Assembly (NCBI GenBank): GCA_001899205.1
Contig: MKVL01000020.1
Span: 62,001 to 126,000, forward strand
DNA from: Mesorhizobium sp. 65-26
Lineage (GTDB): Bacteria > Pseudomonadota > Alphaproteobacteria > Rhizobiales > Rhizobiaceae
Direction: 5' to 3'
DNA length: 64,000 nt
Of this stretch, positions 9,578 to 55,958 are shown piece by piece (position 1 is the first letter of the stretch; each line of letters opens with the position of its first letter). The position numbers and the translations under genes were made by a program. A model generated the notes under the pieces. The model had not been told where the DNA came from and made no database searches. It was given only the letters and a program-made list of their open reading frames with translations.

Positions 9578-9800
9578 GCGCGGACTGGTGGCGTTGAGCT
9601 TTTCTGGACCGATTCCTGCACGGCCTGTCAGAAAAACGAAATTGATCCTTCCAGCCTGAGCCGGAACATTGAAGCGTCCTGGAATGGCATTGGGGATTCC
9701 CGCCGTTCCGGGCCGGAGGAGGAAAGCCGCCAACGGTCGTTGAATGCCTCGCCACAAGCGGCGGGGCGGCACGGCGTGGCGCAAGGGCAGGGAGGTCGCT

Positions 9801-10820
9801 ATGGCAGCAGGGTCCGGGACATCGGCGGCCGATGCCTCGTCGCGGCCCTCCGGGCGCCGCTTCAAGATCACCCAGGAAGGCGTCGTCGCGGCCATCGCGG
9901 TCGTGCTGTTCATCGTCTTCTCGATCTCGCTCAACAACTTCCTGACCCAGGGCAACCTGCTGACGCTGCTCAAGAACGTCGCCATCCTCGGCACGCTGGC
10001 CGTCGGCATGGGTTTCATCGTCGTCGGCCGCGGCATCGACCTCACCATGGTCGCCGTCATGGTGGTCGGCGTTGCCTTCTCGATCTGGCTGTCCAGCCAG
10101 GGCTTCGGTTTCGGCCAGGCGCTGCTGATCGGCGCCGGCCTGGTCGCGGTCTGCGGCTTCATCACAGGCTTCCTGATCGCCGTCGCCGAGGTGCCGCCGA
10201 TCTTCGCCACGCTCGCCATGGCCTCGGTCGTCTATGGCGGCGGCCGCGTCGCCTTCAATTCGGACGTTCTCTATGCGCCGCCGGGCGTTGGCTGGCTGAC
10301 CTTCATCGGTTCCGGCACGGTGGCCGGGGTTCCGGTCTCGGTGCTGATCTTCGTCGGCCTCGCGGCGCTGATCGCGCTGTTCCTCAGGCTCACCCGCTTC
10401 GGCCGCTTCGTTTACGCGACCGGCGACAATCCGCAGGCGGCGCGAACCATGGGCCTGCCGACGCGCCCCGTCATCATCAGCCAGTACGTCGTCTCGGCGC
10501 TGATCGCCTATTCGGCCGGCATCCTGCTCACCGGCCTGGTCTCGGGCATCAACACCCGCCTCTACAATTCGACGCTGATCTACGACGTGCTGCTGGTCGT
10601 CGTGCTGGGTGGCATCAGCCTCTCGGGCGGTCAGGGCGGCGTCCGCAACGTGCTGGTCGGCACGGTGCTGGTCGGCATCCTGATCAACGGCATGACCATC
10701 CTGAATTTCAGCTTCACAAGCCAGAACCTGATCAAGAGCGTGATCCTTCTGGCGGCGCTCGCGCTCGACGCGGTCATCAACCCGCGTGACGAGCAGACCT
10801 CGCAGAGCGGCGACATCTGA
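9801..10820 (+). CDS. CUT2-type ABC transporter permease (cassette A, first permease)
   Basis: This 339-residue RbsC-family inner-membrane permease belongs to a ribose-type importer. Start 9801 is chosen because GGGAGG lies 5-10 bp upstream; an in-frame ATG at 9744 has no such site. Hydrophobic helices begin at about residue 24 ('GVVAAIAVVLFIVFSISL'). The family motif 'GMGFIVVGRGIDLTM' (normally GGIDLS) is near residue 75, and 'VVLGGISLSGGQGGVRNVLVGT' near the C-terminus is the conserved loop facing the ATPase. It is the first gene of a five-gene cassette repeated at 49031-55958. The C-terminal 'NPRDEQTSQSGDI' is almost identical to that of the cassette B permease. Confidence 0.93.
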   Translation: MAAGSGTSAADASSRPSGRRFKITQEGVVAAIAVVLFIVFSISLNNFLTQGNLLTLLKNVAILGTLAVGMGFIVVGRGIDLTMVAVMVVGVAFSIWLSSQGFGFGQALLIGAGLVAVCGFITGFLIAVAEVPPIFATLAMASVVYGGGRVAFNSDVLYAPPGVGWLTFIGSGTVAGVPVSVLIFVGLAALIALFLRLTRFGRFVYATGDNPQAARTMGLPTRPVIISQYVVSALIAYSAGILLTGLVSGINTRLYNSTLIYDVLLVVVLGGISLSGGQGGVRNVLVGTVLVGILINGMTILNFSFTSQNLIKSVILLAALALDAVINPRDEQTSQSGDI

Positions 10821-10873: not shown

Positions 10874-11884
10874 ATGAGCCTTTTGAAGAAAGCCATCGCC
10901 GCGACATTGGTCGCGGTCGGCCTGCATGCCATGCCGGCCGTCGCCAAGGACATCGACCAGGTCGGCCGCGCCGCCTATGTCAATGCGCTCAAGGACAAGC
11001 GGGTGATCTTCATCCCGCTGTCGCAGGGCATGGACCTGAACCAGGCCTGGACCACCGTCTGGCAGCGTCACGCCGCCCGCTACGGCTTCAAGTTCGAGGT
11101 CCGCGACCCGAACATGGATACGGCCGCCGGCATCCGTGCGCTCCAGGGCGCCATCGCCGAGAAGCCCGACGTGCTGATCGTGCAGAACCCCGACGTCCAG
11201 ACCTACGCCCGCGCGCTGAAGCAGGCCCAGGAAGCCGGCATCAAGATCCTGCAGATCAACATGCAGTCGATCACCCAGACCGACAGCTATGTCGGCAACG
11301 ACTGGATCGAGATGGGACGCCTGGAGGCGGGCGAGCTCGCGCGCACCTGCCTGAAGCCGGGCGCGCCCTCGGGCAAGATCGTCTGGCTGGCCGGCGTGCA
11401 GACGGGCGCCGCTAACATCTACATGCGTGAAGGCATCAACCAGATCCTCGCCGAGAATCCCGGCCTGACCCTGGTCTCCGACCAGCCGGCCGACTACGAT
11501 AGCGAGAAGGCGCGCCAGATCACCGAGACGGTGCTGCAGCAGCATCCCGACCTGTGCGGCATCATGGGCATCTGGGACAATGCCGAGATCGGCGCCGGCG
11601 CGGCCGTTCAGGCGGCTGGCAAGCAGAACCAGGTCACCATCGTCACCAACGGCGCCGGCGCGGCCACCGGATGCGACAGCATCAAGAAGGGCCTGCTCAG
11701 CGTCATCTACAACTTCAACGCGCCGACCCAGGCCGAGATCGCCGCGCAGCAGATCTCCGAGTTCCTCCAGAACCCGCAGCGTCCGGCAGGCTCAGAGAAG
11801 ACCGTGTTCTTCGGCCCGATCACCCGCGTCGACAAGGACAACGCAACCGGCCGCAATTGCTGGACGCTTGACCAGCTGAAGTAA
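10874..11884 (+). CDS. CUT2-type periplasmic substrate-binding protein (cassette A)
   Basis: The 336-residue protein has a Sec signal peptide (cleavage likely after 'MPAVA', residue ~24) and a type I periplasmic binding fold of the ribose/galactose group. Segments such as 'IAEKPDVLIVQNPDVQTYA' and 'HPDLCGIMGIWDNAEIGAG' are typical of that fold. The start has a strong GGGAGGAG site. The protein ends with 'NCWTLDQLK', nearly the same as the 'SCWTLDEIK' end of the cassette B protein at 51087, which marks them as paralogues. Conserved Cys residues could form a disulfide. The ligand is unknown; the linked propeller genes suggest a sugar- or lactone-like compound (inference). Confidence 0.92.
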   Translation: MSLLKKAIAATLVAVGLHAMPAVAKDIDQVGRAAYVNALKDKRVIFIPLSQGMDLNQAWTTVWQRHAARYGFKFEVRDPNMDTAAGIRALQGAIAEKPDVLIVQNPDVQTYARALKQAQEAGIKILQINMQSITQTDSYVGNDWIEMGRLEAGELARTCLKPGAPSGKIVWLAGVQTGAANIYMREGINQILAENPGLTLVSDQPADYDSEKARQITETVLQQHPDLCGIMGIWDNAEIGAGAAVQAAGKQNQVTIVTNGAGAATGCDSIKKGLLSVIYNFNAPTQAEIAAQQISEFLQNPQRPAGSEKTVFFGPITRVDKDNATGRNCWTLDQLK

Positions 11885-11895: not shown

Positions 11896-14010
11896 ATGAG
11901 CCTCTCCGAATCCGTCGTCCGCTGGCGTTATCGGTTTCTGCCCGATCACGTCGTCGGCGAAGTCCTGAACAAGAAATGGGTGGACAGCGCGATCCCCTTC
12001 ATCGCGCTGGTGCTGGTGATCGCGATCTTCGGCTCCATCGTGCCGAGGTTCTTCGAGCTCGGCACCCTGGCCAACCTTTCCCAGCAGGTGGCGGAACTGG
12101 GGCTCGTGGTGCTCGGCCTGTCGATCGTCATGATCTCGGGTGGCATCGACCTGTCGGTCGGCTCCACCTTCGCCCTTGCGGTGACGACGGCGCTATACGT
12201 GATGAACGTCGAGGGTATGAGCCTCGGCGCCGGCCTTGCGGTGACGCTTGCCGTCGGCGCCGCCTGCGGCGCCATCAACGGACTGATGGTCGGCGTGCTA
12301 CGCATGCGCGCCTTCCTCACCACGCTGGTGACGCTGATCATCTACCGTTCGATTTTCGATATGGTTTTCCCCGATATCTCGACCGATATCGTGATGAACG
12401 CGCCGGATTCTCCGGCCTACGAGTTCCTCGGCATCGGCCAGCTCTGGGGCTTTCCCGCCTCGTTCCTGCTGATGGTGGTCATCTCGCTGGCGCTTCACGT
12501 CGTGCTCTCGCGCGGGCGCTATGGCTGGCGGCTGCTGGCCGTCGGCGGCGCGCGGCGCTCGGCCCACAATGCCGGCATCAATGTGCGCTGGACGGTGTTC
12601 TCGGCCTATGTGCTGTGCTCGATCTTCGTCGCGCTGGCCGCCTACCTGTTCTCGGCCCGCATCGGCTCGGCCGCATCGGATGTCGGCGCCGGCATGGAAT
12701 TGCAGGCGCTGACCGCGACCGTGCTCGGCGGCATTTCGCTCGGCGGCGGCCGCGGCTCGGTCGCCAAGGCGCTGATGGGCACGGTCTTCGTGCTCATCCT
12801 GTCCAATTCGCTGCTGGCGCTGGCCATTCCGGCGACGGTGAACGCGCTGCTGCTCGGCCTCGTGCTGGTGGCTTCCGTCTTCCTCGACGTGCGCTGGGTC
12901 AAGAACCGCCACAAGCTGCTCAGGGCGGTCTACATCTCGCCGACCTTCAACAAGCTGCTGCCGTCGATCTCGACCGAGGACGGCCCGATGAAGCCCAATG
13001 ACCGCCTGCGTGAGGTCGGCGTCATCGGCCTCGGCATCATGGACGGAGCCGAGGACGTCGTCTTCGACCGCGACGACAACCTCTATACAGGCTCGCGCCA
13101 CGGCGACATCCTGCGCTGGTCGCCGCCCGACTACACCAGGCACGAAGTGTTCGCCCACATTGGCGGCGCCCCCATGGGCATGGTGTTCGACGAGGCGGGC
13201 AACATGGCGGTCTGCGTCGGGGGCATGGGGCTCTACCAGATTTCGCCGCAGGGCGAGGTGAGCCTGCTGACGGCCGAGACCAACCGCAGCTGGACCTCCG
13301 TCGCCGACGATTCTGTGATGAAGCTCGCCGACGACTGCGACATCCTTCCCGACGGTCGCATCATCTTCTCCGAGGCCACCGTGCGCTTCGAGATGCACGA
13401 CTGGTACGCCGACGCGCTGGAGAGCCGGGGCAATGGTCGTCTGATCTGCTACGACCCGAAGGCCAGGACCACCCGCACCATCGTCAACGACCTGGTGTTC
13501 CCCAACGGCGTCTGCACCTCGTATGACGGGGAATCGGTGCTGTTCGCCGAAAGCTGGGCCTGCCGCATCAACCGCTACTATTACGCCGGCCCGAAGAAGG
13601 GCACGGTCGAGCGCGTGATCGAGGGCCTGCCCGGCTATCCCGACAACATCAACCGCGCCTCCGACGGCAATTACTGGCTGGCGCTCATGGGGTCGCGCAC
13701 GCCGGCGCTCGATCTCTCGCTGGAGATGCCCGGCTTCCGCCGCCGCATGGCGCGCCGGGTGTCCGAGGATGCCTGGCTGATGCCCAACCTCAACACCGGC
13801 TGCGTGCTGAAATTCAGCGAGAAGGGCGAGATCCTCGAAAGCTACTGGGATCTCGGCGGCCAGAAGCACCCGATGATCACCTCCATGCGCGAACACAAGG
13901 GCGTGCTCTATCTCTGCGGCATCTTCAACAACCGCATGGGCACGCTGAAGCTACCTGACGCCGATCAGAACTGGTGTGGCGTCGACACCTACTGGAGCAA
14001 GCGCACATGA
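11896..14010 (+). CDS. ABC permease fused to a strictosidine-synthase/SMP-30-like beta-propeller (cassette A)
   Basis: One uninterrupted 704-residue frame joins two modules. Residues ~1-345 are an RbsC-type permease with multiple membrane helices, 'MISGGIDLSVGSTFAL' and 'TVLGGISLGGGRGSVAKALMGT'. Residues ~365-700 are a soluble propeller of the strictosidine synthase/gluconolactonase superfamily, with 'GAEDVVFDRDDNLYTGSRHGDI', 'VFPNGVCTSYDG', 'ESWACRINRYYYAGPKKGT' and 'GLPGYPDNINRASDGNYWLAL'. The join follows 'VRWVKNRHKLL', where RbsC-type permeases usually end on the cytoplasmic side, so the propeller is probably cytoplasmic (inference). The same fusion occurs at 51251-53374, which argues against a sequencing artefact. 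The stop overlaps the next start (ATGA). Confidence 0.9.
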   Translation: MSLSESVVRWRYRFLPDHVVGEVLNKKWVDSAIPFIALVLVIAIFGSIVPRFFELGTLANLSQQVAELGLVVLGLSIVMISGGIDLSVGSTFALAVTTALYVMNVEGMSLGAGLAVTLAVGAACGAINGLMVGVLRMRAFLTTLVTLIIYRSIFDMVFPDISTDIVMNAPDSPAYEFLGIGQLWGFPASFLLMVVISLALHVVLSRGRYGWRLLAVGGARRSAHNAGINVRWTVFSAYVLCSIFVALAAYLFSARIGSAASDVGAGMELQALTATVLGGISLGGGRGSVAKALMGTVFVLILSNSLLALAIPATVNALLLGLVLVASVFLDVRWVKNRHKLLRAVYISPTFNKLLPSISTEDGPMKPNDRLREVGVIGLGIMDGAEDVVFDRDDNLYTGSRHGDILRWSPPDYTRHEVFAHIGGAPMGMVFDEAGNMAVCVGGMGLYQISPQGEVSLLTAETNRSWTSVADDSVMKLADDCDILPDGRIIFSEATVRFEMHDWYADALESRGNGRLICYDPKARTTRTIVNDLVFPNGVCTSYDGESVLFAESWACRINRYYYAGPKKGTVERVIEGLPGYPDNINRASDGNYWLALMGSRTPALDLSLEMPGFRRRMARRVSEDAWLMPNLNTGCVLKFSEKGEILESYWDLGGQKHPMITSMREHKGVLYLCGIFNNRMGTLKLPDADQNWCGVDTYWSKRT

Positions 14011-15095
14011 GGGCGATCCGCGCATTCATCGATCGCCGTCTGGGGCGCGGCGAGGCCGCCATCACCGTGCCGATCCTCGACGGCCCGCTCAAGCCCAACG
14101 CGGCGCTGGACGAGGCCGAGATCTTCGCCGAACTCGCCGACGCCGACAATCTGGCGGCGACCGAGAAGGGACTGGTGTGCTCGTCCGGACGGCAGGTGCT
14201 GCGCCTGGGCTGGGATGGCCGCCCGGCCGAACCGCTCGCCTCCCTCGCCGTCGAGGTTTCGGCGCTGGCCGCCGGCAAGGGCATGCTTGCCATCGGCCTC
14301 GACGGCGAGGGCATAGAGATACGCGGCGGCCCGCATGACGGCCGGCGCTTCGGCCGATCCGACGGCGGGCCGGCGCATCCGACCTCGGTCGCCTTCCTCG
14401 ACGGCGACACGCTGCTCGTCACCGAAGGCTCGCGGCGCAACCGCGCGCGCGAGTGGCGGCGCGACCTGATGGAGAAGGGTGCCGACGGCAGCCTGTGGAA
14501 GCTCGACCTTTCGACCGGCAAGGCCACGCGCGTCCTCGGCGAGCTCGCCTGGGCCGCGGGCGTCGCGCCGACCGGCTCGCAACGCGTCTGGTTGACGGAA
14601 AGCTGGCGTCATCGCGTGCTATCGGTCGACCTCACCACGGGACGGACGGAGCCGGCGCTCACCCATCTGGCCGCCTATCCCGCCCGCATCGCGCCGGCGG
14701 TCGACGCCGGCTTCTGGCTGAGCTTCTATTCCATCCGCAACCAGCTGGTGGAGTTCATCCTGCGCGAGGACGTCTATCGCCGTCGCATGCTGGCCGAGGT
14801 GCCGGAACCCTTCTGGATGGCGCCGGCGCTGGCCTCGGGCCTCTCCTTCCGCGAGCCGATGCAGGGCAGCCAGCTCAAGCAGATGGGCGTGCTGAAGCCA
14901 TATGCCGTCACCCGCTCCTATGGGCTGATGGTTCAGTGCGATCAGCAGATGCGGCCGCTGCGCAGCTTCCATTCCCGGGCCGACGGCGCGATGCATGGCT
15001 GCGTCGCGGCCTGCGAGCGCGGCGACGACCTGTTCGTGGCCTCGAAGGGCAATGGCCGCGTGCTGCGGCTGAGCGGCGCGGCGAGGGAGGGCTAG
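14007..15095 (+). CDS. Solo SMP-30/strictosidine-synthase-like beta-propeller protein (cassette A)
   Basis: The start at 14007 overlaps the stop of the fusion gene (ATGA), giving 362 residues with no signal peptide or membrane segment, so it is probably cytoplasmic. Propeller-like motifs include 'AAGVAPTG', 'WLTESWRHRVLSVDL' and 'GFWLSFYSIRNQL', which align by eye with the FPNG / ESW..RI.R / FW.A landmarks of the fused propeller. Several presumed metal-site positions differ (for example 'AAG' in place of 'PNG'), so it may be catalytically altered or structural. Tight coupling to the fusion gene and the ATPase gene (2 bp gap) suggests a common complex or pathway step. The function is not established. 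Confidence 0.85.
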   Translation: MRAIRAFIDRRLGRGEAAITVPILDGPLKPNAALDEAEIFAELADADNLAATEKGLVCSSGRQVLRLGWDGRPAEPLASLAVEVSALAAGKGMLAIGLDGEGIEIRGGPHDGRRFGRSDGGPAHPTSVAFLDGDTLLVTEGSRRNRAREWRRDLMEKGADGSLWKLDLSTGKATRVLGELAWAAGVAPTGSQRVWLTESWRHRVLSVDLTTGRTEPALTHLAAYPARIAPAVDAGFWLSFYSIRNQLVEFILREDVYRRRMLAEVPEPFWMAPALASGLSFREPMQGSQLKQMGVLKPYAVTRSYGLMVQCDQQMRPLRSFHSRADGAMHGCVAACERGDDLFVASKGNGRVLRLSGAAREG

Positions 15096-15097
15096 GC

Positions 15098-16591
15098 ATG
15101 GAAAACATCGTCGAATTCCGCAACGCCACCAAGACCTTCAGCGGCATCGCCGCCTTTCGCGACATCGACTTCACCCTGCGCAAGGGTGAGATCCACGCGC
15201 TGCTCGGCGAGAACGGCGCCGGCAAGTCCACGCTGACCAAGGTGATCGCGGGCGTCTACCGGCCGACCTCCGGCAAGATGCTGTTCGACGGCCGCGAGGT
15301 GAGTTTCGGCTCGCCGGCCGAAGGGCTGCGCAACGGCGTCGTCATGGTGTTCCAGGAGACGAATCTCGTTCCCGCCATGACGGTCGCCCAGAACATCTAT
15401 CTCGGTGACGAAAAGGCCTTCAACCGCCTGCGCGGACTCTACATCGAGGCGCGGCAGTTCCTCGTCGGCATGGGCTTCCAGGTCGACCCGACCGCACAGG
15501 TGTCGACGCTGGGCGCGGCGCAGAAGCAGATGGTCGAAATCGCGCGCGCCGTGCACCACAAGGCGCGCGTCATCATCTTCGACGAGCCGACGGCGACGCT
15601 GACGCCGGAGGAGAAGCGCCACTTCTTCAGCCTCATCGATCGCCTGAAGAAGCAGGGCACGGCGATCGTCTTCATCACCCACGCGCTGGAGGAGGCGCTG
15701 CAGGTCGCCGACCGCATTACCGTGCTGCGCGACGGCGAGCTGGCCGCCACCGGCGACGCCAAGGACTTCACCCGCGCTTCCGTCGTTCAGGCGATGGTCG
15801 GCCGCAACCTGACCGAGACCTTGCACGGCGCCCGCCGCCGCGAGCCCCGGCCCTATGGCGAAAAGGTGCTGAGCGTCGAGAACCTGTCCTGTGGCTCGAT
15901 GGTCCGCAACTCGTCCTTCTCGGTCTTCGGTGGTCAGGTGACGGGCATTTTCGGCCTCGTCGGCGCCGGCCGCAGCGAGATGGCCAAGGTCGTCGCGGGC
16001 GTGCTCAAGCGCGACTTCCTGCATGGCGGCGAAATCCGCCTGAACGGCAATCCGGTGCGCTATCGCGTGCCACGCCCGGCCATGCGCGACGGCATCGTCT
16101 ACGTTACCGAGGACCGCAAGGTCGATGGCTTCTTCGAGACGATGACGGCGGGCCAGAACCTGCTCCTCGGCGAATTGTCAAAGGCCGCCAATCCGGTCAC
16201 CCCCGTGTCGATGGGCCGGGCGGTGGAACTGGCCAGGGAGTGGGGCGAGCGCCTGCAGCTCAAGCAGATATCGGACCGGGCGCGCATGATCGAGCTTTCC
16301 GGCGGCAACCAGCAGAAGGTGGTGATCGCCAAGTCGCTCATCCAGGAGCCGAAGCTGATCATCTTCGACGAACCGACGCGCGGCGTCGACGTCGGCGCCA
16401 TCGTCGAAATCCACAAGCTGATCCACGATCTGGCCGACCAGGGACTGGCCGTGGTAGTGATTTCCTCCTACCTGCCGGAAATCATGGCGGTTTCCGACCG
16501 GATCCTGGTTGCAAAGCGCGGCAGGGTCGTGGAGGAGATGCTGGCGTCGGAGGCCGACGAGGCCGCGATCATGTTCGCCGCGGTCCACTGA
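15098..16591 (+). CDS. CUT2-type ABC transporter ATP-binding protein, two nucleotide-binding domains (cassette A)
   Basis: The protein has 497 residues, the normal length for RbsA/XylG-type double ATPases. The first domain has Walker A 'GENGAGKST', Walker B 'VIIFDEPTATLT' and a degenerate signature (LGAAQKQ). The second has an atypical Walker A ('GLVGAGRSE'), a good signature 'LSGGNQQKV' and Walker B 'LIIFDEPTRGVD'. A weak second Walker A is usual for this family. The start at 15098 follows the previous stop by 2 bp with GAGGGAGGG upstream; longer frames upstream are read-through of the overlapping gene. It energises import by the two permeases encoded upstream. Confidence 0.95.
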   Translation: MENIVEFRNATKTFSGIAAFRDIDFTLRKGEIHALLGENGAGKSTLTKVIAGVYRPTSGKMLFDGREVSFGSPAEGLRNGVVMVFQETNLVPAMTVAQNIYLGDEKAFNRLRGLYIEARQFLVGMGFQVDPTAQVSTLGAAQKQMVEIARAVHHKARVIIFDEPTATLTPEEKRHFFSLIDRLKKQGTAIVFITHALEEALQVADRITVLRDGELAATGDAKDFTRASVVQAMVGRNLTETLHGARRREPRPYGEKVLSVENLSCGSMVRNSSFSVFGGQVTGIFGLVGAGRSEMAKVVAGVLKRDFLHGGEIRLNGNPVRYRVPRPAMRDGIVYVTEDRKVDGFFETMTAGQNLLLGELSKAANPVTPVSMGRAVELAREWGERLQLKQISDRARMIELSGGNQQKVVIAKSLIQEPKLIIFDEPTRGVDVGAIVEIHKLIHDLADQGLAVVVISSYLPEIMAVSDRILVAKRGRVVEEMLASEADEAAIMFAAVH

Positions 16592-16663
16592 TCAGCCAGC
16601 ATGCCAGCGGCGCCTCTCCTCGCTCGGCGCCGCGAGCGGCAAGGATCGGAAGTGGAGTTTGCC

Positions 16664-17563
16664 ATGGCGGGGAACAACATCAATCTCAAGCTGCTGCAGA
16701 CTTTCCTGCTGGCCGCCGAGCATGGCAGCTTCCGCCGCGCCGCCGAGGAGAGCAACCGTTCGCCCTCGGCCGTCTCGATGCAGATACGCGACCTCGAGGA
16801 ACAGGTCGGGATGAGCCTGTTCATCCGCACGCCGCAACGCGCCAACCTCACGCCCGAGGGCCGGATCCTCTACGAGCAGGTGCGGCGCGCCATGGCCGAC
16901 GTGCAGATGGGGCTACAGCGCCTGTCGGAGGTGGCGGCGCAGCGGCGCGGCCATGTCAAGATCGCCTGCGCTCCCACGCTGGCCTCCACCCGGCTGGGAA
17001 ACATCCTGGCGACGTTCAAGCTGCGCTATCCGCGCTCGGTGGTGGATGTGCGCGAAACGCCGCCGGCCGGTGCGCTTACCTTGCTGCAGGAGCAGGAGGT
17101 GGAGCTCTACATCGGTCCCGAAATCCCCAACCTCACCGAGTTCCAGTTCGAGCCGATCCTGCAGGACCGGCTGGCCGCCTGCGTGCCGGCCGACTTCGAC
17201 CACGGCGCGCAGGAGCTGACGCTGGCCGAGCTGTCGCATTTCCCGCTGATCATGCTCGACCGTCAGACCGCGATCCGCACCCTCATCGACCGCATCGTGG
17301 CCGAAGGCAGCATCCGGCTGAACATCCAGTATGAGGTGCAGAACGCCTATACGGCGATCGCGCTGGCCTCGGCCGGCCTCGGCGTCGCCATCGTGCCGTC
17401 GATCGCCATTCCGATGCTGCCCTCTGCGGAGTTTCGCGTGGTGCCGATCTCCGACGCCGCCGCCATGCGCGCCGTCGGCATCCTGACCGCGCGCGGTTAC
17501 GTCCATAACAGCTATTCGGAACAGCTCATTGAGCTGATCCGGACCGAGATGCGCAAGCCTTAG
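16664..17563 (+). CDS. LysR-family transcriptional regulator
   Basis: The 299-residue protein has an N-terminal winged helix-turn-helix ('LKLLQTFLLAAEHGSFRRAA...SPSAVSMQIRDLEEQVG') and a LysR effector-binding domain from about residue 90. Start 16664 is chosen because it places the HTH at residue 6 and has GGAAGTGGAG upstream; the frame continues to 16601 without a recognisable start context. It lies 72 bp downstream of cassette A on the same strand, so it may control that cassette or the aldehyde dehydrogenase region that follows. It converges with the dehydrogenase gene at 17586. The effector is unknown. Confidence 0.92.
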   Translation: MAGNNINLKLLQTFLLAAEHGSFRRAAEESNRSPSAVSMQIRDLEEQVGMSLFIRTPQRANLTPEGRILYEQVRRAMADVQMGLQRLSEVAAQRRGHVKIACAPTLASTRLGNILATFKLRYPRSVVDVRETPPAGALTLLQEQEVELYIGPEIPNLTEFQFEPILQDRLAACVPADFDHGAQELTLAELSHFPLIMLDRQTAIRTLIDRIVAEGSIRLNIQYEVQNAYTAIALASAGLGVAIVPSIAIPMLPSAEFRVVPISDAAAMRAVGILTARGYVHNSYSEQLIELIRTEMRKP

Positions 17564-17585: not shown

Positions 17586-19073
17586 TCAGTCGGTGTTGAT
17601 CCACACCGCCTTGGTGTCGAGATACTCGTCCATGTGCTCGATGCCGCCCTCGCGGCCATAGCCGGACATCTTCACCCCGCCGAACGGCACCGCCGGATCG
17701 ATGGCATGGTACATGTTGACCCAGACCGAGCCTGCCTTGAGGCGCCGCGCCAGCTTGTGCGCCGTGCCGAGATGCGTGGTGAACACCCCCGCCGCCAGCC
17801 CGTAGGGCGTCGCATTGGCGCGCGCCACCACCTCGTCCAGCGTGTCGAAGGGCAAGGCCGAGATGACAGGGCCGAAAATCTCCTCGCGCGCGATCGTCAT
17901 GTCGTCGGCGACATCGCCGAACACCGTCGGCGCGATGAAGTTGCCGCCCGCGAATTCCGCTCCCTCAAGCCGGGCGCCGCCCGCGACGAGGCGGGCGCCC
18001 TCGGCCTTGCCGGCATCCAGGAATCCGGCGACGCGCTGCGCCTGCCGGGCCGAGATGATGGGACCGATTTCCGTCAAGGGGTCGACACCCGCGCCGATGC
18101 GCAGCTTCCTGGCGTAATCGGCGACCAGGCCGACGAACTCGTCGTGGATGTCGCGCTGCACGAACAGGCGTGAGCCGGCGATGCAGATCTGGCCGGAATT
18201 GGCGAAGACCGCCATCGCCGCCACGGGAACGGCCTTTTCGAGGTCGGCGTCGCGGCAGACGATCACCGGTGATTTCCCGCCCAGCTCCAGCGAGACGCGC
18301 TTGAGGTTTCCGGTGGCGGCGCGCGCTATGGCCTGGCCGGTGGCGGTCGAGCCGGTGAAGACGATCTTGTCGACGTCGGGATGCGCGGCCAGCGCCGCGC
18401 CGGCCTCGGCGCCGGTGCCGGTCACCACGTTCAGCACGCCGTCCGGCAGGCCGGCTTCCTGCATCAGCCTGGCGATCATCAGCACGGTCAGAGAGGCCTC
18501 TTCCGAGGGCTTGAGCACGACCGTGCAGCCCGTCGCGATGGCCGGCGCCACTTTCCACACCGATCCCGCGATCGGCGCGTTCCATGGAATGATCGCGCCG
18601 ACCACGCCGACCGGCTCCTTCACCGTTTGCGACAGGATCTCGCCGGGGAAGGAATTGGGGATGGTGGCGCCGTGAATGGAGACCGCCTGGCCGGCATAGA
18701 AGCGCAGCATGCCGAGCACGCGACGGCTGTTGGCCAGCGTGCGCGAGATCGGCATGCCCATGTCGAGGGTGTCGGAGAGGCAAAGGTTTTCCCATTCGGC
18801 TTCGAAACGCTCCGCAATCCGCAGCAGCAGCGCCTGGCGCTCGAAGGGTGTGGATCGCGACCAAGGGCCTTCGAAGGCGCGGCGCGCCGCGGCGACGGCG
18901 GCATCGATATCGGCGGCGCTGCCCCTTGGCACGGTCGCCAGCAGCGCCCCGTTGGCGGGATTATGCGCCGCCATCACTTCGCCGGAAGCGGACGGCACCC
19001 ACTGCCCGCGCACGAACATCGGGCGGAAGCCGCCGTCGTAGAGCGCCGCCGCGCGGGTTTGCCAGTCGATCAT
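17586..19073 (-). CDS. NAD(P)-dependent aldehyde dehydrogenase
   Basis: This 495-residue ALDH-superfamily enzyme oxidises an aldehyde to the acid. The Rossmann/substrate regions show 'GAIIPWNAPIAGSVWKVAPAI', 'VFTGSTATGQAIA', the general-base motif 'LELGGKSPVIV' (Glu ~263) and the nucleophile in 'NSGQICIAGSRLF' (Cys ~297). The C-terminus carries 'PFGGVKMSGYGREGG', typical of betaine- or phenylacetaldehyde-type ALDHs. It is divergent from the SDR gene at 19317; an alcohol-to-aldehyde-to-acid sequence is plausible but not shown. The substrate is unassigned. Confidence 0.93.
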   Translation of the reverse strand: MIDWQTRAAALYDGGFRPMFVRGQWVPSASGEVMAAHNPANGALLATVPRGSAADIDAAVAAARRAFEGPWSRSTPFERQALLLRIAERFEAEWENLCLSDTLDMGMPISRTLANSRRVLGMLRFYAGQAVSIHGATIPNSFPGEILSQTVKEPVGVVGAIIPWNAPIAGSVWKVAPAIATGCTVVLKPSEEASLTVLMIARLMQEAGLPDGVLNVVTGTGAEAGAALAAHPDVDKIVFTGSTATGQAIARAATGNLKRVSLELGGKSPVIVCRDADLEKAVPVAAMAVFANSGQICIAGSRLFVQRDIHDEFVGLVADYARKLRIGAGVDPLTEIGPIISARQAQRVAGFLDAGKAEGARLVAGGARLEGAEFAGGNFIAPTVFGDVADDMTIAREEIFGPVISALPFDTLDEVVARANATPYGLAAGVFTTHLGTAHKLARRLKAGSVWVNMYHAIDPAVPFGGVKMSGYGREGGIEHMDEYLDTKAVWINTD

Positions 19074-19163: not shown

Positions 19164-19316
19164 GGCGCGCCGCAGGTTAGTACGGATCATGTGCGCGCGG
19201 GGGTGCAATCTCAAGGAAGGAAAGCTGATCGCGCGTTCAGATAATGCGACTGTCCTCGCCTGCCTCCATCGCCCATCTTGCCGGCAGCGAGGGCGCGGCG
19301 CCCGGAGGAGATATCG

Positions 19317-20063
19317 ATGCAGCTTCAGGGAAAAATTGCCGTCGTGACCGGCGGCGGTTCGGGTTTCGGCGAAGGGATCGTGCGCAAGTTCGTGGCCGAG
19401 GGCGCGCGCGTCGTGGTGATGGACCGCGACGCAGCCAATGCCGCGCGCGTCGCGGAAAGCCTCGGCGACGCCTGCCGGGTCTTCGTCGGCGACGTGGCCC
19501 AGGCCGCCGGCATGGAAGGCGCGCGCGACCTCGCCTTGTCGGCTTTCGGCGGCTTGCACGTGCTGGTCAACAATGCCGGCGTCGGCCATGTGCCGACCCC
19601 ACTCGACGAAATAGACGAAGCCACTTTCGATCGCGTCGCTAACGTCAACATGCGCTCGATCTACCATGGCGCGCGCGCCATGGTGCCCCATTTCAAGGCG
19701 CAGAAGGCCGGTGCGATCCTCAACGTCGCCTCGACCGGTGGCGTGTCGCCGCGGCCGAACCTGACCTGGTACAACGCCTCCAAGGGATGGGTCATCACCG
19801 CGACGCGCGGCATGGCGGTGGAGCTCGCCCCCTTCGGCATCCGCGTCAACGCCATCAATCCGGTCGCGGGCGACACGCCGCTGCTGGCGACCTTCATGGG
19901 CTCCGACACGCCGGAGATCCGCGCGAAGTTCCTGTCGACCATCCCGCTCGGCCGCTTCTCGACGCCGGAAGACATGGGCAACGCCGCTGCCTTCCTGTGC
20001 TCGGACGAAGCCTCGATGATCACCGGCGTCGCGATGGAAGTCGACGGCGGACGCTGCATCTGA
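19317..20063 (+). CDS. SDR-family NAD(P)-dependent oxidoreductase
   Basis: The 248-residue classical short-chain dehydrogenase has the dinucleotide motif 'TGGGSGFGEG' at residues 11-20, 'NNAGVG' near residue 88 and the catalytic Ser and 'YNASK' (Tyr-x3-Lys) near residues 140-160. The C-terminus ends in 'GVAMEVDGGRCI', the usual FabG-like close. The start at 19317 has GGAGGAG 6 bp upstream; the longer frame to 19278 lacks a comparable site. It is followed after 23 bp by the decarboxylating-dehydrogenase-like gene. It likely interconverts a secondary alcohol and a ketone; the substrate is unknown. Confidence 0.93.
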   Translation: MQLQGKIAVVTGGGSGFGEGIVRKFVAEGARVVVMDRDAANAARVAESLGDACRVFVGDVAQAAGMEGARDLALSAFGGLHVLVNNAGVGHVPTPLDEIDEATFDRVANVNMRSIYHGARAMVPHFKAQKAGAILNVASTGGVSPRPNLTWYNASKGWVITATRGMAVELAPFGIRVNAINPVAGDTPLLATFMGSDTPEIRAKFLSTIPLGRFSTPEDMGNAAAFLCSDEASMITGVAMEVDGGRCI

Positions 20064-20086
20064 GGCTGGCGGGAAGGATGCAAGCG

Positions 20087-21178
20087 ATGAAGGACAGCTA
20101 CCAGATCGCCGTGGTTCCCGGTGACGGCATCGGCCCGGAAGTGACGGATGCGGCGCTCGACGTGCTGCGCGCCGCCTTCGGAGGGGAATTGCCGCTCGCG
20201 TTCACCGAGTATCCCGCGGGCGCGGAGCTTTATCGCCGCACCGGTGAGAGCTTTCCCGACGCAACGTTCCAGGCTTGCCGCGATGCGGACGCCGTCCTGC
20301 ATGGCGCGGCCGGCATTCCAGGCGTGGTGCATCCCGACGGCACGGAGGCCGGCCTCGACTTCACGCTGCGCCTGCGCTTCGAGCTCGACCTGTTCGCCAA
20401 CATCCGCCCGGTCCGGCTCTATGCCGGGGTGCGTTCGCCATTGGCGGGCGTGGAAGCCGGCCAGATCGACTACGTGATCCTGCGCGAGAACAGCGAGGGC
20501 CTCTACGCGGCGCGCGGCGCCGGGGCGCAGCTGCGCGGCGAGATGGCGGTCGACACGCTGGTGCAGACCCGCAAGGGCGTGGAACGCATCGTTCGCCAGG
20601 CGTTCGAAATCGCCCGTGCCTCGAATGGCGCGCCGGCGGACGGCGTCAGGCGCGTGACCTGCGTCGACAAGGCCAACGTGCTGCGCAGCTACGCCTTCTT
20701 CCGCTCGATCTTCGACGAAGTGAGCAAGGACTACCCCGATATCGAGGCCGAGCATGGCCTGATCGACGCGATGGCCATGTATCTCGTGACCCGGCCGGGC
20801 CACTACAACGTCATCGTCACCGAGAACATGTTCGGCGACATACTGTCGGACCTCGCCGCCGCGACCATCGGCGGCATGGGGCTGGCTCCGTCGGCGGAAG
20901 TCGGGCTGTCGCGCGGCCTGTTCCAGGCGGCGCATGGTTCGGCCCCGGACATCGCCGGGCTCGGCATCGCCAATCCCTACGGCACTGTCCTTTCGGCGGC
21001 CTCGATGCTCGAGTGGCTGGGGCGGCGCGAGGCGGATGATCGGCTCGTCTCGGCGGCGGCTCGCATCCGTCGCGCCTCTGAGAAGGCCATCGGCGACGGC
21101 GCGCTGACGCGCGACCTTGGCGGCACCGCCGATACGGCGAGTGTCGTGAAGCGCCTCTGTGCCTGTCTGGACGCTTGA
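20087..21178 (+). CDS. Isocitrate/isopropylmalate dehydrogenase-family protein (tartrate-dehydrogenase-like)
   Basis: The 363-residue beta-decarboxylating dehydrogenase acts on (R)-hydroxy acids. It contains 'VVPGDGIGPEV', 'LRENSEGLYAARGA', the catalytic 'DKANVLR' and the metal-binding 'NVIVTENMFGDILSDLAA'. The NAD region is 'AAHGSAPDIAGLGIANPYG'. Within the family, isopropylmalate, isocitrate, homoisocitrate and tartrate dehydrogenases are hard to separate by eye. The context, away from leucine genes, favours a catabolic role such as tartrate/malate-type oxidation. Start 20087 follows GGGAAGG; the ATG at 20078 is an alternative. It is likely co-transcribed with the SDR gene. Confidence 0.88.
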   Translation: MKDSYQIAVVPGDGIGPEVTDAALDVLRAAFGGELPLAFTEYPAGAELYRRTGESFPDATFQACRDADAVLHGAAGIPGVVHPDGTEAGLDFTLRLRFELDLFANIRPVRLYAGVRSPLAGVEAGQIDYVILRENSEGLYAARGAGAQLRGEMAVDTLVQTRKGVERIVRQAFEIARASNGAPADGVRRVTCVDKANVLRSYAFFRSIFDEVSKDYPDIEAEHGLIDAMAMYLVTRPGHYNVIVTENMFGDILSDLAAATIGGMGLAPSAEVGLSRGLFQAAHGSAPDIAGLGIANPYGTVLSAASMLEWLGRREADDRLVSAAARIRRASEKAIGDGALTRDLGGTADTASVVKRLCACLDA

Positions 21179-24822: not shown

Positions 24823-24841
24823 CGATACGCACCTTTTTCGT

Positions 24842-31885: not shown

Positions 31886-31901
31886 GGAGGAGGACAGCAC
31901 C

Positions 31902-34118: not shown

Positions 34119-34120
34119 TC

Positions 34121-48984: not shown

Positions 48985-49030
48985 TGCCGCATGGTTGGCC
49001 CGCCAAGGGTTCAGGGAGGAAATGAGGGAC

Positions 49031-50035
49031 ATGCAGACGGCAAGCAGTGGTAAGGCCGGCGATCGCCGGTCGGCGTATTTTTCGCAGGAACGCATCGTTC
49101 TTGCGATTGCCGTTGTCATGTTCGTCCTGTTCGGCCTGACGCTTCCGGGCTTCCTCGCTCCGGGCAACCTGCTGTCGCTGGTGCAGAGCGTTTCCATTCT
49201 CGGCATACTGGCCATCGGCATGGCGCTGACCATCATCGGCCGCGGCATCGATCTCGCCATCATTTCGACCATGGCGATGTCGGTCGCCTGGGTCATCTTC
49301 ATGCTCGGCGGTGGCACGCCTGTCTGGCAGGCGGTCCTGCTCGGCTACCTGTTCGTGGTGTGCATCGGCCTGGTCATCGGCTTCCTCGTCGCCTACGCGG
49401 AAATCCCGGCGATCTTCGCGACGCTGGCGATGACCACGGCGATCTACGGCTTCACCCGCGTCGCCTTCGTCGACGTCGACCTGCTGTTCATTCCCCAGAG
49501 CGCGTCCTGGACCCGCGAATTCGGCGCCGGCTATGTGTTCGGCATCCCGATCCCGGTGATCGCCTTCGCGATCGTCGCGCTTCTGGCGCATCTCTTCCTG
49601 CGCCATACCAAGCCAGGCGTGTTCATCCGCGCCATGGGTGACAATCCTCTGAAGGCGCGCATCGCCGGCATCCCGACCCGCCCGATGATGCTGCTGCAAT
49701 ATGTGATCTCGGCATCGATCGCCTTCTTCGCTGGCCTGGTGCTGGCCACCCTGGTCGGCACCATGAACACCCGCGTGGTCAACTCGACCATGGTCTACGA
49801 CGTCATCCTGGTCGTCGTGCTCGGCGGCATCGTGCTGAGCGGCGGCCGCGGCGGGATCTTCAACGTCATCGTCGGCACGCTTCTGATCGGCATCTTCCTG
49901 AACGGCATGACGATCATGAACGTGTCCTATTCGATCCAGAACCTGATCAAGGGGGTGATCCTGCTGGTCGCCATCATCATCGACACGGTTCTGAACCCGC
50001 GAGACGAACAGACATCGCAGCAGGGCGACATCTGA
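49031..50035 (+). CDS. CUT2-type ABC transporter permease (cassette B, first permease)
   Basis: The 334-residue RbsC-family inner-membrane permease has 'GMALTIIGRGIDLAIISTM' and 'VVLGGIVLSGGRGGIFNVIV'. It is paralogous to the cassette A permease at 9801-10820; both share 'GRGIDL', 'NPRDEQTSQ.GDI' at the C-terminus and the same gene order downstream. Start 49031 gives ~10 bp spacing from AGGGAGGA; the ATG at 49022 is only 1 bp from it, and a TTG at 48995 is also in frame. It would pair with the fused permease as a heterodimeric channel (inference). Confidence 0.92.
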   Translation: MQTASSGKAGDRRSAYFSQERIVLAIAVVMFVLFGLTLPGFLAPGNLLSLVQSVSILGILAIGMALTIIGRGIDLAIISTMAMSVAWVIFMLGGGTPVWQAVLLGYLFVVCIGLVIGFLVAYAEIPAIFATLAMTTAIYGFTRVAFVDVDLLFIPQSASWTREFGAGYVFGIPIPVIAFAIVALLAHLFLRHTKPGVFIRAMGDNPLKARIAGIPTRPMMLLQYVISASIAFFAGLVLATLVGTMNTRVVNSTMVYDVILVVVLGGIVLSGGRGGIFNVIVGTLLIGIFLNGMTIMNVSYSIQNLIKGVILLVAIIIDTVLNPRDEQTSQQGDI

Positions 50036-50064
50036 CGCTACCGACAAAAAAACGGAGGAGAAAA

Positions 50065-51087
50065 ATGAGGAAACTGATCAACATCATCGGCGGCGCGGCC
50101 ATCGCGCTCGGCATCGGCATGACCGCCGTCAAGGCGCAGGACGCCGGCTTCGACGACGGCATGTCGACGAAGTTCTACGAGAGCATGAAAGGCAAGAAGG
50201 TCGTGTTCGTGCCGATCTCGATCGGCATGGACATCGCCGCCGGCTTTGCCGCCGGCATGCAGCGCATGGCCGACCAGTACGGCTTCCAGCTGCAGATCCG
50301 CGACCCCAACTGGAACGTCGACCAGGGCGTGCAGGCGATCACCCAGATCATCAGCGAGAAGCCCGACCTCGTCGTGATCCAGAACGTCGACATGCAGGCC
50401 TATGCCCGCGTCATCAAGCAGGCGATGGAAGCCGGCGTGCGCGTGCTGCAGGTCAACGTCAAGGCGACCAGCAACTCGACCGCCCATGTCGGCATCGACT
50501 GGTACAAGAACGCCGAGACGAACGCGCTCAAGCTGGTCGAGAAATGCAGCCCCAAGAATGGCGGCAACGGCAAGATCGCCGCGCTCGAGGGCACGCCCAA
50601 CAACCCAACCAACTTCATCGGCATGAAGGCCTTCAACGACGTCATGGCGGCGCATCCCGAGATGACCGTGGTGTCCGACCAGGCCGCCGACTGGGACGCC
50701 AGCAAGGCCCATTCCGTGGTCTCGACCGTGGTGCGCCAGTCGCCTGACCTGTGCGGCTATTTCGGCCTCTGGGATGGCCAGGATTCCGGCATGGCCGCGG
50801 CCATCCGGGAAGCCGGGCTGACCGGCAAGGTCTTCGTCGTGTCGCAGGGCGCCGGCGAAAAGGCGGCTTGCGAGAAGATCGCCGACGGCAGCTACGACTT
50901 CTACGTCTCCTACAACATCCGCGAACTGTCGAAGCACATCAACGACGCCATCGCCGTCATCCTGCAGCGTCCGGCGGACGAGACGCTGCAGCCGTTCGCG
51001 ATCTACCTGACGACCCAGAACCTGACCAAGGACACGCTGACCCCGAGTTCCTGCTGGACGCTCGACGAGATCAAGCGCGGTTACTGA
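50065..51087 (+). CDS. CUT2-type periplasmic substrate-binding protein (cassette B)
   Basis: The 340-residue protein has a Sec signal peptide (cleavage likely after 'AVKAQ', residue ~25). The type I binding fold shows 'ISEKPDLVVIQNVDMQAYA' and 'SPDLCGYFGLWDGQDSGMAA'. It ends in 'SSCWTLDEIKRGY', matching the C-terminus of the cassette A protein. It starts after CGGAGGAGAAAA. It delivers the ligand to the cassette B permeases. Enough differences from the cassette A protein are visible that the two may bind different ligands. A strong hairpin follows the gene. Confidence 0.92.
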   Translation: MRKLINIIGGAAIALGIGMTAVKAQDAGFDDGMSTKFYESMKGKKVVFVPISIGMDIAAGFAAGMQRMADQYGFQLQIRDPNWNVDQGVQAITQIISEKPDLVVIQNVDMQAYARVIKQAMEAGVRVLQVNVKATSNSTAHVGIDWYKNAETNALKLVEKCSPKNGGNGKIAALEGTPNNPTNFIGMKAFNDVMAAHPEMTVVSDQAADWDASKAHSVVSTVVRQSPDLCGYFGLWDGQDSGMAAAIREAGLTGKVFVVSQGAGEKAACEKIADGSYDFYVSYNIRELSKHINDAIAVILQRPADETLQPFAIYLTTQNLTKDTLTPSSCWTLDEIKRGY

Positions 51088-51094
51088 TCCCCAT

Positions 51095-51118
51095 GGAGCG
51101 CCCGGCGACGGGCGCTCC
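51095..51118. promoter_or_regulatory. Perfect 9-bp stem hairpin after the binding-protein gene
   Basis: GGAGCGCCC and GGGCGCTCC form a 9-bp stem with the loop GGCGAC, 8 bp after the binding-protein stop and in the 163-bp gap before the fused permease. There is no T-run. It could stabilise the upstream mRNA so that binding protein is made in excess, as seen in other importer operons (inference). Confidence 0.5.
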
Positions 51119-51250
51119 ACCTTCCGCAGGCCAGGGCAGTTCCTGCAAGGGCGCGACGGTTTAGCGTTTGGAATTGCGCATAGACAAGAGATGAAGCGTT
51201 GAGGCGATCCTGCGTTCGCCGGAATTGCTCCATGACTTCAGGGACGTGAG

Positions 51251-53374
51251 ATGGCGATATCGGAAACGTATGCGAAGTGGCGTTATCGCCTGGTGCCCGA
51301 CCATGTCGTGGGTGAACTGCTGTCGAAGAACTGGATCGACAACGCGATCCCGGTCTTCATCCTGGCGCTGCTGCTGATCGTCTTCGGCACGGTCATCGAC
51401 AATTTCTTCACCTTCGGCACCTTCTCGACCATGCTACGGCAGATGGGCGAGCTGACCTTCGTGGTGCTGGGGATGACGCTTGTCATCCTCGCCGGCGGCA
51501 TCGACCTCAGCGTCGGATCCGTCTTCGCGCTGGCCAATTTCCTGACCCTGTTCCTGCTGAACTACCTCCAGGTGCCGGTCATGGTGGGCATCCTGCTGGT
51601 GCTCCTGGTGGGCGCGCTGTGCGGGCTGATCAACGGCGTTCTGGTCGGCTATCTCAAGCTTCGCGCCTTCCTCACCACGCTCGCCACGCTGATCATCATC
51701 AGCGCCATCGTCGAGATCCTGACGTTCCGCTACGCCCGCGACGTCGTCATGTACACGCCGGACTCGAAGCTGTGGGATCTCCTGGCGGCCGGTACGGTGC
51801 TGGGCATTCCCTTCAATTTCGTCCTCGTGCTGGTCGTCGCCGTGGCGATGCACATCTACCTGACCCGCATGCGCAAGGGCTGGCACATCACCGCGGTCGG
51901 CGGCTCGCGCCGGTCGGCCTACAATGCCGGCATCAATGTGCGCGGCACCGTCTGCCTGACCTATGTGATCTCCGGCATCTTCGCCAGCTTTGCCGGCGTC
52001 CTTTACGCCGCACGCCTTAACAGCGCCGGCTCCGAGACCGGCGCCGGCCTCGAGGTCACGGTGCTCACGGCCGCGGTGCTCGGCGGTAATTCGCTGGGCG
52101 GCGGACGCGGCTCGGTGGCAAAGGCGCTGCTCGGCACCTTCATCGTCGTTCTCCTGACCAGCAGCCTGCTGCGGCTGCAGATGCCGAGCGGCTACAATTC
52201 GCTGCTGCTCGGCGGCGCCCTGCTCGTAGCCGTGGCCACGGATGTCCGCTGGCTGAAGAACCGCCACAAGCTGCTCTCTCGCGTCTATGTCTCGCCGACC
52301 TATTTCGCGCCGACGGCGGCCGCCTCGACCGATCCGGGCTCCGGCTCGCCCTATGAGATCAACGATCGTCTTGCAGAGGCCGAGGCGATCGGGCTCGACC
52401 AGGTCGACGGCGCCGAGGATCTTGCCTTCGACAGGCAGGACAACATCTACACCGGTAGCCGCCACGGCGACATCGTCAGGTTCTTCGCGCCCGACTACAC
52501 GCGCAGCGAGATCTTCGCCCATATCGGCGGCCAGCCGCTCGGCCTGCACTTCGACGGCGACGGCGCGCTCTACGCCTGCATCAGCGGCATGGGCCTTTAC
52601 AAGGTCACGCCCGACCGCGAGGTGATCAGGCTCGCCGACGAAACCAACCGCAGCCGCCTGTCGATCATCGACGACAGCCGCATGCGCTTCGCCGACGACA
52701 TGGACTTTGCTCCCGACGGCTCGGTCTATTTCAGCGAGGCGACGATCCGCTACGACGTCACCGACTGGGCGACGGACTCGATGGAGGGCCGCGGCAACGG
52801 CCGCGTCCTGCGCTACGACCCCAAGACCGGCGTGACGCGCACCGTTCTGCCGAAGCGCATGTTCCCGAACGGCATCTGCATGACGGGCGACGGCGAGTCG
52901 CTGTTCTTTGCCGAGACCTGGGCGGGCCGCATCAATCGCTACTGGTTCGCCGGCCCGAGGAAGGGCACAGTCCAGCCCGTCATCACCGACCTGCCCGGCT
53001 ATCCCGACAACATCAGGCGCTCGTCCGACGGCAATTTCTGGGTCGCCATGCTCGGCATGCGCACACCCGCGCTCGACCTTGCCATGCGCATGCCGGATTT
53101 CCGCCGGCGCATGACCCAGCGCGTGGCGTTCGAGGAGTGGATCTATCCGAACATCAACACCGGCGGTGTCGTCAAATATGACGTCAATGGCAGGATCCTT
53201 GAATCGCTTTGGGACCGTTCGGGCGAGAAGCACCCGATGATCACCTCGATGCGCGAGCACAAGGGCTATCTGTACCTGGGCGGCGTGTTCAACAACCGGC
53301 TGGGGCGGCTCAAGCTGCCGAATGCCGATCCGAACTTCAACGATCGCGCGCTTTATTTCGGGAATTGGTCGTGA
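51251..53374 (+). CDS. ABC permease fused to a strictosidine-synthase/SMP-30-like beta-propeller (cassette B)
   Basis: The 707-residue paralogue of the fusion at 11896-14010 has the same order. The permease (residues ~1-345) has 'ILAGGIDLSVGSVFALANF' and 'VLGGNSLGGGRGSVAKALLG'. After 'DVRWLKNRHKLLSRVYVSPT' comes a propeller (residues ~370-700) with 'GAEDLAFDRQDNIYTGSRHG', 'MFPNGICMTGDGESLFFAET', 'WAGRINRYWFAGPRKGT' and 'DLPGYPDNIRRSSDGNFWVA'. Compared with cassette A, this propeller keeps a more canonical 'AETWAGRINRYW' stretch. No frameshift or stop lies between modules. GTGA at 53371-53374 couples it to the next gene. The propeller may process, sense or stabilise; no function is proven. Confidence 0.9.
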   Translation: MAISETYAKWRYRLVPDHVVGELLSKNWIDNAIPVFILALLLIVFGTVIDNFFTFGTFSTMLRQMGELTFVVLGMTLVILAGGIDLSVGSVFALANFLTLFLLNYLQVPVMVGILLVLLVGALCGLINGVLVGYLKLRAFLTTLATLIIISAIVEILTFRYARDVVMYTPDSKLWDLLAAGTVLGIPFNFVLVLVVAVAMHIYLTRMRKGWHITAVGGSRRSAYNAGINVRGTVCLTYVISGIFASFAGVLYAARLNSAGSETGAGLEVTVLTAAVLGGNSLGGGRGSVAKALLGTFIVVLLTSSLLRLQMPSGYNSLLLGGALLVAVATDVRWLKNRHKLLSRVYVSPTYFAPTAAASTDPGSGSPYEINDRLAEAEAIGLDQVDGAEDLAFDRQDNIYTGSRHGDIVRFFAPDYTRSEIFAHIGGQPLGLHFDGDGALYACISGMGLYKVTPDREVIRLADETNRSRLSIIDDSRMRFADDMDFAPDGSVYFSEATIRYDVTDWATDSMEGRGNGRVLRYDPKTGVTRTVLPKRMFPNGICMTGDGESLFFAETWAGRINRYWFAGPRKGTVQPVITDLPGYPDNIRRSSDGNFWVAMLGMRTPALDLAMRMPDFRRRMTQRVAFEEWIYPNINTGGVVKYDVNGRILESLWDRSGEKHPMITSMREHKGYLYLGGVFNNRLGRLKLPNADPNFNDRALYFGNWS

Positions 53375-54464: not shown

Positions 54465-54468
<4 letters not shown>
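53371..54468 (+). CDS. Solo SMP-30/strictosidine-synthase-like beta-propeller protein (cassette B)
   Basis: The 365-residue protein starts at GTG 53371, overlapping the fusion stop (GTGA). It is a paralogue of the protein at 14007-15095: both begin with a short basic helix and 'LWGRGEFSITVPSMDGALRP' or its equivalent, and share 'FWLSFY/YWLSVF..R.Q..EF.LRE.VY..RM.AEVPE.FWMAP'. Propeller landmarks are 'FPAGVVADAAG' and 'VSEAWKHRLVRR'. No signal peptide or membrane segment is seen. Its stop overlaps the ATPase start by 4 bp. It may bind the transporter complex or act on its cargo; the function is unknown. Confidence 0.85.

Positions 54469-55958
<1,490 letters not shown>

Follow-up and report, generated by a model that had tools for sequence, protein, structure and literature searches.

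An in-frame fusion of an RbsC-type permease with a strictosidine-synthase/SMP-30-type propeller in a conserved five-gene ABC importer cassette

To our knowledge, ABC importers are thought to deliver their cargo unchanged. A single open reading frame in the 64,000-nucleotide stretch of Mesorhizobium sp. 65-26 DNA analysed here (the window) raises the question of what an importer would do with a propeller domain of an enzyme family attached to one of its permeases. The frame (11896-14010, + strand) starts with ATG and encodes 704 aa with no internal stops. Its permease half (residues 1-345; 11896..12930) contains BPD_transp_2 at residues 59-327 (110 bits, cut-off 26.8) and ten predicted membrane helices, and a linker (residues 346-362; 12931..12981), modeled as low-confidence coil, leads from the last helix to a six-bladed propeller (residues 363-704; 12982..14010). 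Pfam places SSL_N (residues 363-408, 40.2 bits, cut-off 18.9), SGL (398-600, 51.7 bits, cut-off 26.3) and Str_synth (479-565, 68 bits, cut-off 25) in the propeller, such that by sequence the protein belongs both to the RbsC-type (BPD_transp_2) importers and to the SGL/strictosidine-synthase-like propellers. It is not the ribose permease RbsC equivalog (NF007067), scoring 153.2 bits against a cut-off of 398. The AlphaFold2 model from a 65-row alignment (pLDDT 85.2) has helices up to residue 346 and a six-bladed propeller after them; at a pTM of 0.65, how the halves sit relative to each other is unsure. The top Foldseek match of the propeller was strictosidine synthase (6s5u_E, E 5.6e-15, target-length TM 0.81), and other matches were TGW6, DFPase and the RPA3624 lactonase. 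The family assignment of both halves made in an earlier sequence-only reading, which placed the propeller at about residues 365-700, thus holds, with all Pfam matches above cut-off and Foldseek in agreement.

An assembly error or frameshift was considered as the origin of the fusion and rejected. No stop lies between the modules, as far as sequence allows this to be tested, and the full-length frame is open in 80/80 kept named loci, which were chosen as best matches to the fusion. The window's genome contains six copies, the five others being 46-56% identical to the window's frame, and 15/16 plasmid records that match the fusion contain at least 80% of its length. Open loci, same-genome copies and plasmid records agree that the fusion is not the product of chance or misassembly. 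The in-frame joining proposed from the letters alone is therefore borne out by Pfam, AlphaFold2, Foldseek and the 80 open loci: this is a real fusion of an RbsC-type permease to a complete strictosidine-synthase/SMP-30-type propeller. A full-text search of open-licence papers found no described permease-propeller fusion, in line with the earlier statement that no characterised example was known, and a search of such papers for bacterial strictosidine-synthase-like lactonases found no description of the fusion architecture.

The fusion is the third gene of a cassette whose order is permease 1, binding protein, fusion, second propeller (SSL2) and double ATPase, all on the + strand. Permease 1 (9744..10820) is a 358-aa RbsC-type protein without a propeller (BPD_transp_2, 76.2 bits, cut-off 26.8) that keeps its place beside the fusion in conserved order, and it is followed by a 336-aa RbsB-type periplasmic binding protein (10874..11884; Peripla_BP_4, 137.1 bits). 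SSL2 (14007..15095, 362 aa), whose start codon overlaps the fusion stop codon, was recognised as a propeller by its model (pLDDT 90.8) and by Foldseek, with TGW6 and strictosidine synthase as best matches. The RbsA/AraG-type double ATPase (15092..16591, 499 aa), whose start overlaps the SSL2 stop, matches ABC_tran over two stretches (190 bits); its best NCBIfam match is AraG at 471 bits, under the equivalog cut-off of 689. A cognate binding protein and a double ATPase thus share an operon with the fusion, as in an RbsC-type importer. Existing PGAP-type annotation names the fusion an 'SMP-30/gluconolactonase/LRE family protein' and SSL2 a hypothetical protein or strictosidine synthase. SSL2, the cassette, its second copy and the surrounding acid and CoA genes were all absent from the sequence-only reading.

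That second complete cassette lies at 48995..55958 (+ strand), with permease at 48995-50035, binding protein at 50065-51087, fusion at 51251-53374, SSL2 at 53371-54468 and ATPase at 54465-55958. Near it are genes for a GMC oxidoreductase (44908-46509) and a CoA-transferase III (47599-48984) and, on the - strand, a carboxymuconolactone decarboxylase-family protein (56000-56743) and an HpcH/HpaI lyase (57933-58808). All six fusion places in the window's genome have the same five genes, as do 75/80 named loci from other species, where all five lie on one strand. Among the five incomplete loci, three lie on contigs that stop after the fusion and one on a contig that starts at it; the fifth, L090, has no recognisable binding protein in a 1.1-kb gap. 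The SSL2 start codon lies no more than 40 bases upstream of the fusion stop codon in 77/77 SSL2-bearing loci, in which the SSL2 starts were chosen by that same rule.

The named loci are mostly from Alphaproteobacteria, with one from Bordetella, and plasmids add Paraburkholderia and Pantoea. These 80 were the top matches among at least 513 confirmed stretches encoding a relative and so are biased to close relatives, and 289 sampled genomes of the class were therefore searched separately with a fusion profile and an SSL2 profile, scoring three candidates per genome and counting the window's genome from its own search. A full-length fusion was present in 7/289 genomes and SSL2 in the same seven, where 14/14 SSL2 places adjoin a fusion. 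Split versions of the fusion were looked for and none was found among the 289 genomes, every place found with the independent SSL2 profile adjoining a fusion. In a phylum sample, 25/398 genomes match: 11 with the full fusion, 13 with a lone propeller and one with a permease-ATPase relative. Three stand-alone propellers (L144, L145 and L146; 357-365 aa) are 36-38% identical to the fused propeller and come from genomes without a cassette match. The 6.84-Mb genome of the window itself has 70 places that match the fusion, mostly plain RbsC-type permeases, showing that it encodes very many such importers.

An even number of helices with both ends inside is predicted for the permease half, and in this N-in, ten-helix model Lys and Arg number 18 on the inner loops vs 2 on the outer ones. 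The permease-ATPase relative, in locus L143 of a genome of the same phylum, gives independent evidence on this topology. In this locus permease 1 and a binding protein are followed by an 846-aa protein in which an RbsC-type permease runs in frame into a double ABC ATPase (L143:4433-6973), and its permease is 40% identical to the permease half of the window's fusion. Fusions of this type occur in 3/80 genomes sampled in its family, namely that of L143 and two others, which encode one at 53% identity. The ATPase must be cytosolic, so the corresponding end of the fusion permease is cytosolic too. On predicted topology and this relative, a periplasmic propeller was rejected and the fused propeller is placed in the cytosol, which is the side the earlier reading had given it. 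L143 also reveals that a related importer core does without propellers.

Hydrolases of the SMP-30, DFPase and PON type have a four-site pattern of Glu / Asn-or-Asp / Asn / Asp-Asn, and the fused propeller has it, with E386, D479, N537 and D583-N584 as putative metal-type ligands. Among 65 aligned fusions, E386, D479, D480, D482, N537 and N584 are invariant, and D583 is present in 64/65. The equivalence of these sites was drawn through an alignment with TGW6, in which TGW6 residues align with D479, N537 and N584, and for Glu-386 by position only. By sequence, the closest relative with a solved structure is TGW6, an ester hydrolase acting on IAA-glucose. Excerpts of the TGW6 study (PMC10958001) indicate that it keeps most of the ligand pattern, yet its crystal showed no Ca; by the alignment and these excerpts, it is without the acidic residues that the fused propeller has at 479 and 583. 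The pattern is thus no proof of a metal. As a conserved feature of the sequence, it nevertheless favours catalysis by the fused propeller.

SSL2 fails the same pattern in a comparison of 60 rows. D479, D480 and D482 of the fusion align with SSL2 sites 125, 126 and 128, and site 125 is Pro, Val, Ile, Met or Leu in 60/60. Site 184 is Asn in only 15/60, site 226 is Gly, Ala or Ser in 60/60, site 227 is Arg in 56/60, and Asp replaces the Glu equivalent to fusion Glu-386 at site 47 in 55/60. SSL2 retains the predicted fold, at the pLDDT given above, and has invariant residues of its own. Judged by residues, the full metal-type site is kept in the fused propeller and lost in SSL2, which is apparently an inactive copy of a propeller enzyme. 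The presence of two propellers per cassette, one plainly without ligand residues, could be taken to mean that both are inactive scaffolds that merely stabilise the complex or dock soluble enzymes, but conservation of the ligand side chains in the fused copy would then be unexpected, and we regard this as very unlikely. Strictosidine synthase chemistry was also considered for the fused propeller and rejected: the catalytic Glu of strictosidine synthase, which we take to be Glu-309 and to align with Thr-662 of the fusion, is replaced by that Thr in 65/65 fusions, by a weak local alignment. Hydrolysis is favoured by the ester hydrolase activity of TGW6 and by the presence of lactonases and DFPase among the structural matches.

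Conservation across loci was compared next to these site patterns, leaving 16 near-copies (Mesorhizobium-type loci) out of the means, the tree and the neighbour comparison. Mean pairwise identity over 59 loci was 68.6% for the fused propeller and 68.5% for the ATPase. The permease half (57.8%), permease 1 (56.8%), the binding protein (50.3%) and SSL2 (43.9%) were all less conserved by this measure. In 1426/1431 divergent pairs the fused propeller was more conserved than its own permease half, a pattern that at the sequence level shows strong selection on it. This result cuts both ways, fitting a common chemical step, the opening of a lactone or ester, and a common coupling or regulatory role alike. 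A propeller as conserved as the ATPase despite differing downstream genes may not read the cargo at all, which suits the latter role.

In such a regulatory arrangement the propeller would bind a cytosolic ligand, either the product or a general signal, and gate the transporter without hydrolysing cargo, much as MetN- and ModC-type ATPases are regulated by domains at their C-termini. The arrangement draws on conservation that equals that of the ATPase and exceeds that of the cargo-reading parts, on the importer relative in L143 that has no propellers, and on the retention of SSL2 without a metal-type site in every SSL2 locus examined. However, the fused copy keeps the whole metal-hydrolase ligand pattern, which a pure sensor would not need, and the neighbouring pathways vary by clade, making one common ligand not obvious. 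We regard gating by the propeller as the main rival to hydrolysis, though unlikely on balance. The sequence-only reading had proposed that the domain was either catalytic or sensory; the complete or near-complete invariance of the ligands across the 65 homologues favours, without proving, the catalytic alternative.

Genes around the cassettes give an indication of what is imported. Downstream of the first cassette lie a LysR-type regulator (16601..17563, + strand; LysR_substrate and HTH_1), an aldehyde dehydrogenase (17586..19073, - strand; Aldedh, 574 bits), a short-chain dehydrogenase (19278..20063, + strand; adh_short_C2, 192.6 bits) and an isopropylmalate/tartrate dehydrogenase-like enzyme (20078..21178, + strand; Iso_dh, 318 bits, scoring under the equivalog cut-off of every model shown). 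These genes belong to neighbour clusters 0-3, members of which recur near close relatives, the LysR-type cluster 2 in 27/80 loci. Elsewhere in the window, two thiolase-like genes and a CoA-transferase III gene stand in a row at 22487-25999 (- strand), and an unrelated catabolic cluster between the cassettes (29783-35393) has genes like those for hydantoinase/oxoprolinase A and B subunits, then a CoA-transferase III gene.

We compared neighbours using 22 probe proteins, taking as controls 19 loci from the window's genome that encode plain RbsC-type importers, after dropping loci shorter than 15 kb and one control stretch near a cassette. At least one of aldehyde dehydrogenase, CoA-transferase III, AMP-binding enzyme, HMG-CoA reductase, Iso_dh and acyl-CoA dehydrogenase was found beside 48/54 cassettes vs 2/19 controls, a contrast that is only indicative because the probes came partly from cassette loci and the controls from one genome. 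Taken singly, aldehyde dehydrogenase (p = 0.0075), AMP-binding enzyme (p = 0.0076) and enoyl-CoA hydratase (p = 0.00075) differed between cassettes and controls. Not significant singly were HMG-CoA reductase (8/54 vs 0/19, p = 0.1), CoA-transferase (p = 0.095) and Iso_dh (p = 0.055), nor did HMG-CoA lyase or acyl-CoA dehydrogenase differ between the 54 cassettes and 19 controls, and short-chain dehydrogenases were equally common (23/54 vs 8/19). Two probes for sugar-use genes, Gfo/Idh and PfkB, each found 0/54 beside cassettes. This acid and CoA context argues against a plain sugar importer.

A cargo with a sugar part was also considered: a ribose-type importer with a sugar-type binding protein, together with TGW6 as nearest solved relative by sequence, would suit import of acyl-sugar conjugates from which the fused propeller frees the acid, as TGW6 does with IAA-glucose. 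Yet neither sugar-use probe found anything beside the cassettes, though some sugar-use genes do lie near the Pantoea cassette, and an ester cargo of this kind in place of a lactone seems to us quite unlikely.

Several clades point to particular acids. A degradative HMG-CoA reductase (436 bits, cut-off 260) is encoded in 8/80 loci and one Shinella plasmid. In the scanned loci of this type, genes for HMG-CoA lyase, CoA-transferase, enoyl-CoA hydratase and a MocR regulator flank the cassette on both sides, in several with the lyase gene abutting the ATPase gene, and L098 has the reductase without the lyase cluster. This gene set is that of mevalonate degradation. In the tree, the fusions linked to it form two well-supported clades, one of six rows and one of three rows plus a locus too short to show the gene, in a count that leaves unlabelled rows out of account; they may have a single origin despite the two clades. 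Neighbours in other clades are an acyl-CoA ligase with an AraC regulator, or an alcohol dehydrogenase, a CoA-transferase and MmgE/PrpD. Beside the AMP-binding/AraC clade, L107:4894-5673 and six other loci encode a 259-aa product with no Pfam match at 1e-8.

For the window's first cassette, the neighbours would fit a cargo of the 2,4-dihydroxybutanoate kind, for example pantoate, since an alcohol would be oxidised to an acid beside an alpha-hydroxy acid, which would then be decarboxylated. We take this pathway to be one for the 2,4-dihydroxybutanoate class of pantoate, which closes to a gamma-lactone. By the same reasoning, mevalonate or mevalonolactone would suit the HMG-CoA-reductase-linked clades. 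Excerpts of PMC13064465 state that mevalonolactone opens spontaneously in water, so that an enzyme would be less needed in those clades.

Together, these lines of evidence suggest that the fused propeller acts as a hydrolase on a lactone or ester, which it opens at the exit of the channel, with SSL2 as its dead partner, a reading to which we give a probability of about 0.5. The importer would be a heterodimeric RbsC-type ABC system in which the fusion supplies the half that bears the propeller. In it, the binding protein would hand over a hydroxy-acid lactone or ester, and permease 1 would pair with the fusion's permease half to move this cargo across the membrane together with the double ATPase. 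The fused propeller, hung from the last membrane helix at its cytosolic end, would hydrolyse the cargo as it leaves the channel, and the free carboxylate would be trapped and then enter the acid- and CoA-forming enzymes encoded next door. SSL2, most likely without catalysis of its own, would partner either the fused propeller or the bare permease. Sequence shows directly the fusion, its cassette, the pattern of residues and the neighbourhoods, and the fold and topology are predicted; from these we infer the hydrolysis, the class of cargo, the pairing of the two propellers and any coupling.

A broader and more tentative extension treats the cassettes as an importer family that unites import and hydrolysis in one complex, with a dead propeller capping the other half, and that has been plugged by duplication as a module into several acid-degradation pathways, namely mevalonate, probably 2,4-dihydroxybutanoates such as pantoate, and CoA-ligase and CoA-transferase routes. 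We hold this to be somewhat doubtful as a whole. If true, transport would be joined to a chemical step in one complex with a dead propeller always alongside, and uptake and opening of the cargo may then be a single step for the cell. Annotation would change for hundreds of 'sugar ABC transporters' (at least 513 candidate stretches), which would be relabelled as uptake systems for acids, lactones or esters, and mevalonate degradation would gain candidate importers. The fusion allows direct tests on single purified domains, for which the stand-alone L144-L146 propellers are candidate soluble relatives.

Among known systems, the RbsABC-type sugar importers (RbsC/AraH, RbsA/AraG, RbsB) have the same Pfam domains, double ATPase, binding protein and predicted ten-helix permease as the cassette. 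Unlike them, the cassette has two different permeases, one of which bears a propeller, and a second propeller gene; its NCBIfam equivalog scores are far under cut-off (RbsC 153 vs 398), and its neighbours are acid and CoA genes rather than sugar genes. SMP-30/gluconolactonase, DFPase and the RPA3624 lactonase (8djf/7ris) have their fold, SGL domain and ligand pattern in common with the fused propeller, which differs from these hydrolases in its tether to an importer and has a metal-type site that is putative. Excerpts of PMC12362111 describe a Deinococcus Cu/Zn-SOD in which an SGL-type propeller is likewise naturally joined to a different functional domain, and whose propeller had weak lactonase activity that was lost with EDTA; in those excerpts that protein, unlike the fusion, is soluble, predicted to be periplasmic and linked to no transporter. 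Strictosidine synthase-like proteins including TGW6 (8kg3) are the best sequence and structure matches of the fused propeller, and differ from it at the presumed catalytic Glu position described above. Finally, in peptidase-containing ABC exporters an N-terminal C39 domain processes the cargo on the cytosolic side. Although these are exporters with a protease, working in the opposite direction and with unrelated domains, they offer a possible working analogy for the fusion.
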